NCBI GenBank assembly: GCA_002179805.1
Contig: NAVB01000150.1
Span: forward strand, 1-64,000
Direction: 5' to 3'
From: Acanthamoeba lenticulata
Taxonomy: Eukaryota > Discosea > Longamoebia > Acanthamoebidae
DNA: 64,000 nucleotides
In this document: positions 5,232 through 59,325 of the stretch, piece after piece
Layout of the letters: every line of letters begins with the position of its first letter
Numbering within the stretch: the first letter of the stretch is position 1
The notes under the pieces: model-generated
What the model was told of the DNA's origin: nothing
The model's input: only the letters and a program-made list of their open reading frames with translations
Databases searched by the model: none
Made by a program: the position numbers and the translations under genes

Positions 5232-6614
<1,383 letters not shown>

Positions 6615-37422: not shown

Positions 37423-39049
37423 ATGAAGTACGGTGGGGCTGCCATGAAGCCACGACTGGGCTCGAGGTCACGCCAAAGCGCCTACGTGCAGTGGGGCCTG
37501 CTCTTTGCCGTGGTGGCTCTCCTGTCGGTCTACATTTACGTCATGTACGTGACCTTTGGTGGGGACAGTGTGGCCGACACCACCACCTCGAGCTCCGAAT
37601 CTACTGCGCTTCGTGACAAAGTTGAGCAAAGCGAGCCGAAGACCGTGTGGATCGATCCAAAGTCGAAGATACACGATGAAGCTCATCAATCCGACCCAAT
37701 TCTGCAGCGCAAGCGCAGGATCATCCTTTCAACTGGCCATGGTGCGTTGTGTCAAATGGATTCATGGTTCATTTCGTGAATGGTCAAAACGATTCGCTCA
37801 ACGCGTCCCTTCGCCGTGGCCACGGCGCCTAGGCAAGTGGAACACGGGCGTGTGGCCTGCGTGGGGCTATGGCAAAGATGTGACGCTGAACTGGGCCGCC
37901 GCGGGCGTAGAAGTCAACAAGCAGTGCCCCGTCGAGTGCGAGATCGTGCATGAGGGCGGCTCGGGCTACGACGACGCCGACGCCGTGGTGATGGAGCTGA
38001 CCAACCACCCCAAGTTTGGCTACGGGGCTGACCTGCCCATCGCGTGGCCCGAGCGGCGGCGGCCGAACCCGCGCCACTGGTACACGACCAAGCTCGACGG
38101 CCACCGCGTGCCGACCAACCTGCCCCTGACGGGCGTCTTCTACTACGAGGCCGCGCAGAGCTACCCGGGCTACACCATCAATGATGAGGCCGTGCGCTCG
38201 CGCATCGACTTCTCCATGACGCCCGACCAGACCTCCACCATGCCGGTCTCGCTCATCTGCCCGTGGGGCCGCACCGTGTCCGAATACCTGCGCCCGGCCC
38301 CGGTCAAGTCCGACGAGCGCTTCATCGCCTACTTCAACGAGCACGGCGTGGCACCCCAGTTCCGCGACATCATCGACCAGTTCTTCCAGGTCGCCGGCGA
38401 CCGTCTCCACAGCTACGGCCCGCACCGCAGCAATCGCGCCATGCCCGACGCCGCCGGTGGCAACCCCTACCAGCTGTCCAAGCGGATCGACTTCATGGGT
38501 ACCTACAAGTTCATCCTCATCACAGAGGCCATTGAGGAAGCCAGCTTTGTGGCGCCCGAGTGGAGCCACGCCCTCCTTGGCGGCGCCGTGCCGGTCTACA
38601 TCGGCGCGCCCAACATCGCCACGCTTGCTCCGGGCCCACGCGCCTTCGTCGACATCCGCAACTTTGCGTCAGGCGCCGAGCTCTGGCAATTCCTCCTCAA
38701 CTTTGAGGACAACCACCAGCGCGGCGGCGTCGAGGCCTACCAGCAGTGGTTCGACTGGAAGCACAGCGCCAAGTTGGCCTACCGCGAGGACGAGGCCAGT
38801 GCTGGCCTGGGCGTGGGCACGGGCGAGGGCGTGCGCCCGGCCTCGGAGATCGACACGGAGCACCTGCGACGCGAGATCGTGAAGTGGACCAAGCCCGTCG
38901 TCGAGGGCATCCAATCCTTTGACTCGGCCCGCGCGGCCGACTTCCACGCGACCGCTGCGCTCGCCTGGCGCTGGTTCCGCATCCACCTGGACCGTTGTGT
39001 TCACTACGCCGAGTGTCGGCTCTGCGAGCTCGTCACTAAGCTCACCTAG
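37423..39049 (+). CDS. Alpha-1,3-fucosyltransferase-like glycosyltransferase (GT10)
   Basis: Exons 37423-37741 and 37833-39049 sum to 1536 nt, 511 residues. A short basic cytoplasmic tail is followed by one signal-anchor helix (WGLLFAVVALLSVYIYVMYV), the type II topology of Golgi glycosyltransferases. The catalytic C-terminal half shows the GT10 signature: YKFILITEAIEEASFVAPEW, then LLGGAVPVYIGAPNIATLAP, then RAFVDIRNF. This is the GDP-fucose site (FxlxxEN..., VPVxxG). The acidic Glu of the motif is present (ITEAIEE). It is divergent from the OGFr gene with about 130 bp between the start codons. Confidence 0.8.
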
Positions 39050-58170: not shown

Positions 58171-59325
58171 TCATCGTTGAGAGCCTCCATAGTTGATCCA
58201 GGCGAGCAGCTGTTTGCTGGTGAGCGAAAGGATGATAAACCCAACCTCACCGATGATGTAGTTCTCCTTGAAGATGCCCCATTCGGACCATTGCAGCCAC
58301 AACATAACGGCAAACGTGTTGTCCTGCCACGAGCCACAGGGCAAAGTAAGTGAAGGTCCACACTTCATCATTGAGGAGGAGCAGGAGCGCACAAGGAAGA
58401 AAATGATGAAGATGATGGCCCACACGAATCCCGGTGGATCGCCGTTCGACGCCGATTGAAAGAAGTAGCACAAGATAATGAGCCACGCCCCGAGGTGAGG
58501 CACAAACCCACTGATGAGAGGCTGCCAGTTCCTCGGTCGCTCCTTGCTCGAGAAGCCGTAGTACTTCCAGTTGGCCCTGCGCACGAGAGCCGTAACAAGT
58601 CAATCACTAGGCTAGCGTACTCAGGACCAGCAAGGCGACCTGCTCACCTCTCATGCATGGAACCAAAGATCATGGTCGTTGCTGTGAGGACGAAGATGGC
58701 AAAGAGGAGGTGGATCTCGGTCGCGCCAGACAACTGCGCTCCCATGACGTGCATGATGCTGGCCGAGATCGAGTACTCGATCCATCGGAAGTGGTTCTGA
58801 TTGCGCGTGAGCCAGTACTTGTACAGCTGCCAGCCGCCAGGAAGGGCCGAGAGGAGATGGTTGAAGGCAGACATCCACAAGAACACCGCCGAGTAGTAGC
58901 CAATGGCCATATCGGACACTTGCTTCGGGTCAGGCACATAGAAGTCTGGGCTCGACGTCTGCCAGTTCTTGACAAAGTCGCAGTACCAGGGGTAGCGGGT
59001 CGAGCTCTTCGTCAAGCCAGCAATAACCACACCTGAATTGCAAAGTGTAAGTGTCAGACAGTGAATTTTAAATGTGGACGTAGAGGGACTCACCTGTGCA
59101 CAGCTGAATAATTCCCACAATGACGTTGAACAGTCGTAGCTTCCAGTTGGGCGTGGGGCTGACGAAGTAGTCTTGACCTCCATATTCCTCTCGGCCGCAG
59201 GACATGAGCACCACTGAGTTGGCCACCCTGGCCACAATGGCAGCTCCTCGGGTTGTCTCCTCGCCCCCTTGCTCATCCGCGAAGAAGTCCCTCACCTTGC
59301 GCGCCCAGGCCGTGCACCGTCCCAT
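58171..59325 (-). CDS. Heliorhodopsin
   Basis: Exons 59094-59325, 58648-59032, 58393-58576 and 58171-58323 sum to 954 nt, 317 residues. Hallmarks in order: LRLFNVIVGIIQLCTG (first helix), FLWMSAFNHLLSALPG (conserved His), RNQNHFRWIEYSISASIM (counter-ion Glu in RWxEYS), TTMIFGSMHE, FAVMLWLQW, and LSLTSKQLLAW with the retinal-binding Lys in the seventh helix. The last intron (58324-58392) is 69 nt, in frame and stop-free; read through, it would insert 23 residues into helix six. Heliorhodopsins are seven-helix retinal proteins with inverted topology and a slow photocycle; their signalling role is unsettled. The N-terminal 55 residues are family-specific and polar. Confidence 0.88.

Follow-up and report, generated by a model that had tools for sequence, protein, structure and literature searches.

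A four-exon heliorhodopsin gene with a predicted retinal-facing aspartate in TM6 from the amoeba Acanthamoeba lenticulata

The window analysed here comprises the first 64,000 nucleotides of the Acanthamoeba lenticulata contig NAVB01000150.1, and its minus strand carries at 58171-59325 a single four-exon gene of the heliorhodopsin family. Judging from its sequence, it is probably a functional nuclear gene encoding an old, eukaryotic-side heliorhodopsin (type-3 rhodopsin) that serves as a retinal-binding photosensor. The family itself is known; less expected are the aspartate found in TM6 across the eukaryotic side of the family and a set of putative genes for retinal supply.

Gene structure and second copy

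The gene runs from an ATG at 59325 to a stop codon at 58171. Exon 1 (59325-59094) contains the start codon, an N-terminal tail of about 60 residues and the start of TM1; it is supported by the gene model and by the tail, which can be aligned to a Balamuthia relative. The other exons, all covered by the gene model and the Pfam match, encode the remaining part of TM1 up to the TM4 region with His136 and the RWIEYS motif (exon 2, 59032-58648), TM5 and the first half of TM6 (exon 3, 58576-58393), and the second half of TM6, TM7 and the stop codon (exon 4, 58323-58171). They are separated by three GT-AG introns of 61 nt (59033..59093, GTGAGT...CAG, phase 1), 71 nt (58577..58647, phase 2) and 69 nt (58324..58392, phase 0, within TM6). 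Splicing gives an uninterrupted frame of 317 amino acids, in agreement with the multi-exon gene of three introns and 317 residues proposed in the first-pass annotation, and the gene predicted by this model is intact.

A second copy was found on contig C1510, of whose 10,036 bases the first 10,000 align end to end with the contig of the window at 96.6 % identity, the gene order being common to both copies over 10 kb. The introns of the C1510 copy are 68, 71 and 66 nt long, with indels in introns 1 and 3, and the coding frame is kept. The coding sequences differ at 12 of 951 bases, so that 3 residues are changed and 8 codons vary synonymously (dN 0.004, dS 0.044); this gives a dN/dS of about 0.09, calculated from only these 12 differences. 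C1510 most likely represents the other haplotype, since the RPE65 and type-1 rhodopsin matches of this genome are likewise paired, with the two members scoring nearly the same and lying on separate contigs; that the segment was recently duplicated is less likely. The possibility of a pseudogene was considered separately and found no support in two intact copies with this dN/dS.

The intron model is supported beyond the splice signals by the introns of the second copy, with the frame intact, and by the metagenomic homologue P0001. The latter covers 60 % of the query at 75 % identity, starts just inside exon 2 and diverges where exons 2 and 3 end, as it was apparently called without splicing and reads through its own versions of the introns. 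This supports the presence of introns 2 and 3 at the same places in a relative. Left unspliced, intron 3 would add 23 residues to TM6, and the spliced TM6 matches that of the heliorhodopsin 48C12 with no gap. Two compensating frameshifts in TM6, considered for the readings flanking 58330-58390, were ruled out, as the 69-nt intron explains these readings and gives the gapless match. In both copies intron 3 has a length divisible by three and contains no stop, so that the helix bearing the retinal lysine stays in frame even if the intron is retained.

Family assignment, key residues and fold

The profile search that the first-pass annotation had called for places the spliced protein within the heliorhodopsins. 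The Pfam family PF18761 (Heliorhodopsin) was matched over profile positions 1-241 of 242 with 245.8 bits (cut-off 26.7) and E 5.3e-73, and sequence comparison with the PDB gave 48C12 heliorhodopsin at E 7.1e-29 and the Thermoplasmatales protein TaHeR at E 8e-23. The values for PF18761 and 48C12 exclude a chance match.

All three motifs named by the first-pass annotation are present: RWIEYS with Glu163, FNHLLSA with His136 and LSLTSKQLLAW with Lys304. Residue counts were made on the readable rows among the best 120 of 130 homologues and among 45 GTDB loci. Glu163 (58776..58778, minus strand as for all codons given here) aligns with Glu107 of 48C12, the Schiff-base counter-ion, and is Glu in 118/118 homologues and 44/44 GTDB loci; the adjacent Tyr164 (58773-58775) aligns with Tyr108 of 48C12, and with Arg160 these residues form the Arg-x-x-Glu-Tyr counter-ion motif of TM3. 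The TM2 histidine, His136 (58857..58859), is His in 117/117 readable homologues and in only 5 of the 44 readable GTDB loci, the other 39 having Leu. Glu293 (58246..58248), equivalent to Glu230 of 48C12, is Glu in 117/118 homologues and 45/45 GTDB loci. The retinal Schiff-base lysine of TM7, Lys304 (58213..58215), shows the same proportions (K in 117/118 and 45/45) and forms with Ser300 the SxxxK motif as defined in PMC9601134 (excerpts).

The fold was judged on the Balamuthia relative, whose AlphaFold2 model, built from a 63-sequence alignment, reached pLDDT 87.7 and pTM 0.83 and shows seven long helices with a two-stranded first extracellular loop. All of its ten best PDB matches were heliorhodopsins, with E from 4.8e-14 to 3.7e-12 and a TM-score by target of 0.85-0.92, and the highest-ranked type-1 rhodopsin had E 8e-4; on this modelled relative, a seven-helix heliorhodopsin fold is predicted for the amoeba protein too. 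The roughly 60 residues before TM1 gave a local score of 69 against the tail of the Balamuthia protein P0002 (maximum of 2000 shuffles, 49) and no significant alignment with P0003 (score 25, equalled by 307/2000 shuffles). In the model of the Balamuthia protein this tail shows little order, with block pLDDT values of 45-65. The heliorhodopsin N-terminus is described as cytosolic in PMC6951262 (excerpts). If the inverted topology of the family holds here, the tail would lie in the cytosol as a candidate docking site.

Genomic setting

The gene sits on a 96-kb contig together with neighbours of amoebal type. An actin gene at 5235-6359 of the window encodes a protein identical in 375/375 residues to PDB 4efh 'Actin-1', which we take to be the actin of Acanthamoeba castellanii, and the best named match of a fucosyltransferase frame at 37676-39046 is from A. 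castellanii Neff (73 % over 89 %). A P-type ATPase gene lies immediately upstream of the heliorhodopsin gene on the same strand. Eight ORFs of the window were scanned against protein families and none gave a viral one, four of the eight giving no family at all. The claim of the first-pass annotation that this is a nuclear gene of the amoeba was thus borne out by the 4efh-identical actin on the contig and by the second copy with its intron indels.

Contaminating DNA in the assembly, from algal prey or a bacterium, might be suspected since algae are eaten by amoebae and the next named relatives of the protein are algal. We give this explanation practically no credence, because the gene shares its contig with the actin and fucosyltransferase genes, is present in two copies with a common order over 10 kb, and has its nearest named relative in another amoebozoan.

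Relatives and origin of the gene

The best named protein among the 120 listed of 130 homologues is a Balamuthia mandrillaris 'Heliorhodopsin' (P0002), 55 % identical over 97 %; Balamuthia is an amoebozoan of the Balamuthiidae (Centramoebida). The presence of a heliorhodopsin in an amoebozoan, pointed out by the first-pass annotation, is hence confirmed, and its novelty is not, as the Balamuthia protein is already in databases under this name. Other names among the best 120 of 130 include Chlamydomonas sp. UWO 241, Chlorella sorokiniana, Gloeochaete, Leptocylindrus danicus and Salpingoeca rosetta. From their entry codes we take P0032 to be from Ulva and P0052 from Cyanophora, and some of the organism labels for the green algal, glaucophyte, diatom and choanoflagellate rows are likewise our assumptions from entry names. 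Only one of the best 120 of 130 is bacterial by name (P0119, Nonomuraea), most rows being nameless. No Acanthamoeba-named heliorhodopsin occurs among the names shown for the best 120 of 130, although the same database includes proteins of A. castellanii Neff; the Neff heliorhodopsin may be absent, missed or mis-modelled in the annotation, or merely nameless in the database. No paper on the Balamuthia heliorhodopsin, a name given to it in the database, was found in the PMC literature; nor was any description of an amoebozoan heliorhodopsin or of the TM6 aspartate found in the PMC excerpts consulted, subscription journals being mostly outside that collection.

Two unrooted trees were built, both with the aspartate column kept and with haptophyte and nearly all viral heliorhodopsins absent. 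The first comprised 74 hand-picked rows, among them 54 of the 120 listed homologues (including P0118-P0120), 8 of 118 matches from a second search, 10 of the 45 GTDB loci and one viral locus; for the second (70 rows) four long rows were dropped (L023, P0102, P0113, L064). The amoeba gene, the Balamuthia protein and the metagenomic P0003 form one group (100/99 in the first tree, 100/98 in the 70-row tree) which falls among green algal, glaucophyte, diatom and choanoflagellate proteins, the deeper order among the eukaryotic rows being partly weakly supported. A separate group (100/100, branch 1.66) is made up of 19 rows labelled prokaryotic, some of them nameless metagenomic ones, and the metagenomic P0118 and P0120. 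Both groups persist in the 70-row tree. The viral side is badly sampled: three scans yielded one viral contig only (L023, the same as L069), on a very long branch. The contig, IMGVR_UViG_3300032259_000001, is 127 kb long; the heliorhodopsin it encodes is very divergent, has Phe at the retinal-packing position of TM6 and carries Glu at the position of Gln216.

Between the two origins left open by the first-pass annotation, old inheritance or transfer followed by intron gain, the Balamuthia grouping and the 100/100 split from prokaryotes favour the former over a recent bacterial transfer. As far as these trees indicate, inheritance of the gene probably goes back at least to the ancestor that Acanthamoeba shares with Balamuthia; a transfer could have taken place before they split. 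That the gene was recently acquired by horizontal transfer, from either a bacterium or a giant virus, and gained its introns afterwards seems very unlikely to us. This reading draws on the heliorhodopsins of mirusviruses and some giant viruses, on virus-eukaryote exchanges inferred in the literature (excerpts), and on the single viral row in our tree. Against it speak the positions of introns 2 and 3, common to the metagenomic P0001, the gene and tail shared with Balamuthia, the prokaryotic rows standing apart, the viral row with Phe instead of Asp, and the surroundings of the gene, with the P-type ATPase upstream and 0/8 scanned ORFs of the window in a viral family (4/8 in no family).

The aspartate of TM6

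Asp268 (58321..58323) lies at the retinal-packing position of TM6, where gapless alignment pairs it with Phe206 of 48C12, the equivalent of Phe203 in TaHeR and Trp182 in bacteriorhodopsin. The aromatic residue which lies on the retinal in TM6 of 48C12 is thus lacking, and Tyr164, on the other side of the retinal sandwich, is kept. In 48C12, the retinal is held between Phe206 and Tyr108 in the way it is between Trp182 and Trp86 of bacteriorhodopsin, and this sandwich was called critical (PMC6951262, excerpts); the type-1 TM6 tryptophan is phenylalanine in most heliorhodopsins (PMC9448325, excerpts). Removal of the aromatic sandwich by Asp268 could weaken retinal binding.

Among the 118 readable rows of the best 120 of 130 homologues, the position is occupied by Asp in 110, Tyr in 3 (P0077 from Chlorella, P0061 and P0116), Phe in 3 and Val in 2, and it is Phe in all 45 GTDB loci, which are bacterial by title. 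One Val (P0001) results from intron read-through, and the three rows with Phe (P0118, P0119, P0120) cluster with prokaryotes in the tree. Phe was also found in the one viral locus, in PDB 9vfc (read by eye), and in 118/118 new matches (P0177-P0294) when the search was repeated with a more distant profile; these are mostly unlabelled metagenomic proteins, of which the named ones are bacterial. All these sets consist of best matches and are no random sample. On the 70-row tree three changes are needed to explain the split between Asp and other residues. Since Asp is common to 110 of 118 homologues bearing PF18761, it is the mark of one branch and does not define the family as a whole.

These observations led us to propose, with slightly less than even confidence, that the heliorhodopsins of cellular eukaryotes are a distinct functional class in which Asp replaces the TM6 aromatic residue and provides a second nearby carboxylate, probably with another colour, photocycle or proton path.

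Retinal supply and other rhodopsins

Matches to carotenoid genes were found within 4.5 kb of contig C3 (about C3:75289-79768, in locus L087, C3:72000-81999). A phytoene-desaturase-like (crtI-like) gene on the minus strand was detected in two pieces of 193 and 171 bits, neither of which alone reaches the whole-protein cut-off of 238. The plus strand carries two matches to lycopene-cyclase domains (56.8 and 35.8 bits, cut-off 39.4), followed by a phytoene synthase match in two pieces, so that the cluster is head-to-head; we take this arrangement to resemble the fungal carB/carRA one. Desaturase and cyclase matches occur on C3 only and the synthase also on C995. Pfam confirmed SQS_PSY and an amine-oxidase/NAD-binding fold for the C3 pieces and gave no match for the two lycopene-cyclase pieces. 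In 14 control genomes the desaturase model was unspecific, matching 14/14 (4 over cut-off), and the cyclase, synthase and RPE65 models matched 3/14, 7/14 and 2/14, respectively.

RPE65-family matches were found on five contigs (C1092, C693, C1321, C1294 and C1736; L008-L019), mostly as pairs of near-equal score, and probably represent at least three genes for RPE65-type oxygenases. The C1294 stretch contains many stops, maybe due to an intron. A Blh-type beta-carotene dioxygenase (PF15461) was matched neither in this genome nor in any of the 14 control genomes. Retinal could be home-made from the amoeba's own carotenoid pathway and the putative RPE65-type oxygenases. Phytoene desaturase mRNA was reported to rise in illuminated Acanthamoeba sp. 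fed green prey (PMC6898599, excerpts).

The genome also contains a near-identical pair of weak matches (31 bits) to the type-1 rhodopsin family PF01036, L020 (C378:92456-92740) and L021 (C784:14481-14765), perhaps corresponding to the sensory rhodopsin reported for A. castellanii. Sensory rhodopsins of type 1 have been reported for that species, as has a light response (PMC4053784, excerpts).

Proposed mode of action

Apart from the TM6 aromatic, the protein has the residues that a retinal pigment needs, which makes a coloured photoreceptor the likely product of the gene. We infer retinal binding, signalling rather than transport, and the roles of the tail and of Asp268. All-trans retinal would come from the amoeba's own beta-carotene by way of RPE65-type oxygenases, or from prey, and would form a Schiff base on Lys304 with Glu163 as the counter-ion. 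Light would isomerise the retinal and change the shape of the helix bundle, and this change may be passed to the cytosol through the N-terminal tail of about 60 residues or a bound partner. Asp268 is probably part of a hydrogen-bond network and may tune colour and photocycle. Light sensing, suggested by the first-pass annotation, is plausible and now has the putative retinal gene set in its support. The absorption near 550 nm expected there derives from prokaryotic members, which absorb from 530 to over 550 nm in a survey that left out eukaryotic and viral ones (PMC7807009, excerpts).

What heliorhodopsins do is still debated, and proton movement has been reported for some viral members (PMC9448325, excerpts). 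A rival reading is light-driven or light-gated proton transport, in which Asp268 would be the TM6 carboxylate that replaces the viral Glu191. V2HeR3 and its relatives move protons by means of a gate formed by a glutamate of TM6, next to the residue that packs on the retinal (PMC9448325, excerpts), and the carboxylate of Asp268 is four residues, one helical turn, from the Glu191 site. On the gapless TM6 alignment with 48C12 and the V2HeR3 equivalences given in PMC9448325 (excerpts), however, the Glu191 position is Ile264 and the position of Trp195, also thought necessary, is Asp268 itself, so that the Glu191 plus Trp195 hallmark of proton transport is absent. The Ile264 column is mostly Leu or Ile in the best 120 of 130 homologues (Glu in 4/118, Gln in 1/118), and in the 118 matches of the second search it is Gln in 80, Glu in 34 and Ile in 4. 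Glu at this position is thus common in some presumably bacterial members and by itself is no proof of transport. Moreover, among six proteins of E. huxleyi and its viruses a steady photocurrent came from V2HeR3 only, and no transport had been seen in earlier work on other heliorhodopsins (PMC9448325, excerpts). The missing Glu191 favours sensing or regulation over transport, for which the nearby carboxylate of Asp268 leaves some room; we regard a transporter as improbable.

A retinal-bound regulator of a partner enzyme, membrane or cytosolic, overlaps with the photosensor proposed here and differs only in its output, which would not be behavioural light sensing. Roles concerning glutamine synthetase and an ABC transporter were reported for two actinobacterial heliorhodopsins (PMC9529153, PMC11109279, excerpts), and the conserved tail could bind such a partner, but the flanking genes give no clue to its nature; we consider this output possible and the less expected one.

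For the role of heliorhodopsins in eukaryotes, an amoeba that can be cultured, lives heterotrophically, has a single locus of this kind and plausibly makes its own retinal offers a test in which photosynthesis does not interfere. If the aspartate class is real, Acanthamoeba, apparently with its own retinal pathway, would be a place to learn its function. By its aspartate at the retinal-packing position the protein differs, in a direct and testable way, from those solved heliorhodopsins that were matched by sequence. The placing of the gene on the eukaryotic side also bears on the proposal that heliorhodopsins originated in eukaryotes (PMC9601134, excerpts).

Comparison with known systems

The closest known protein, Balamuthia P0002, shares with the amoeba protein the aspartate in TM6 (Asp259), an alignable N-terminal tail and the same Lys and Glu, and differs in belonging to another genus (Balamuthiidae). 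The prokaryotic 48C12 and TaHeR (PDB 6su3, 6is6) have the same Lys, Glu counter-ion and SxxxK motif, and, as far as the Balamuthia model tells, the same fold and extracellular hairpin, but they carry Phe at the TM6 retinal-packing position and a short N-terminus. V2HeR3 of Emiliania huxleyi virus 202, as described in PMC9448325 (excerpts), resembles the amoeba protein in having a polar residue near the retinal in TM6; it is, however, a proton transporter, with Glu191 and Trp195 where the amoeba has Ile264 and Asp268. The type-1 sensory rhodopsin-histidine kinases of A. castellanii (literature excerpts) are candidate light sensors of the same genus, with the weak PF01036 match found here too, but unlike the heliorhodopsin they belong to PF01036 and are fused to kinase domains.
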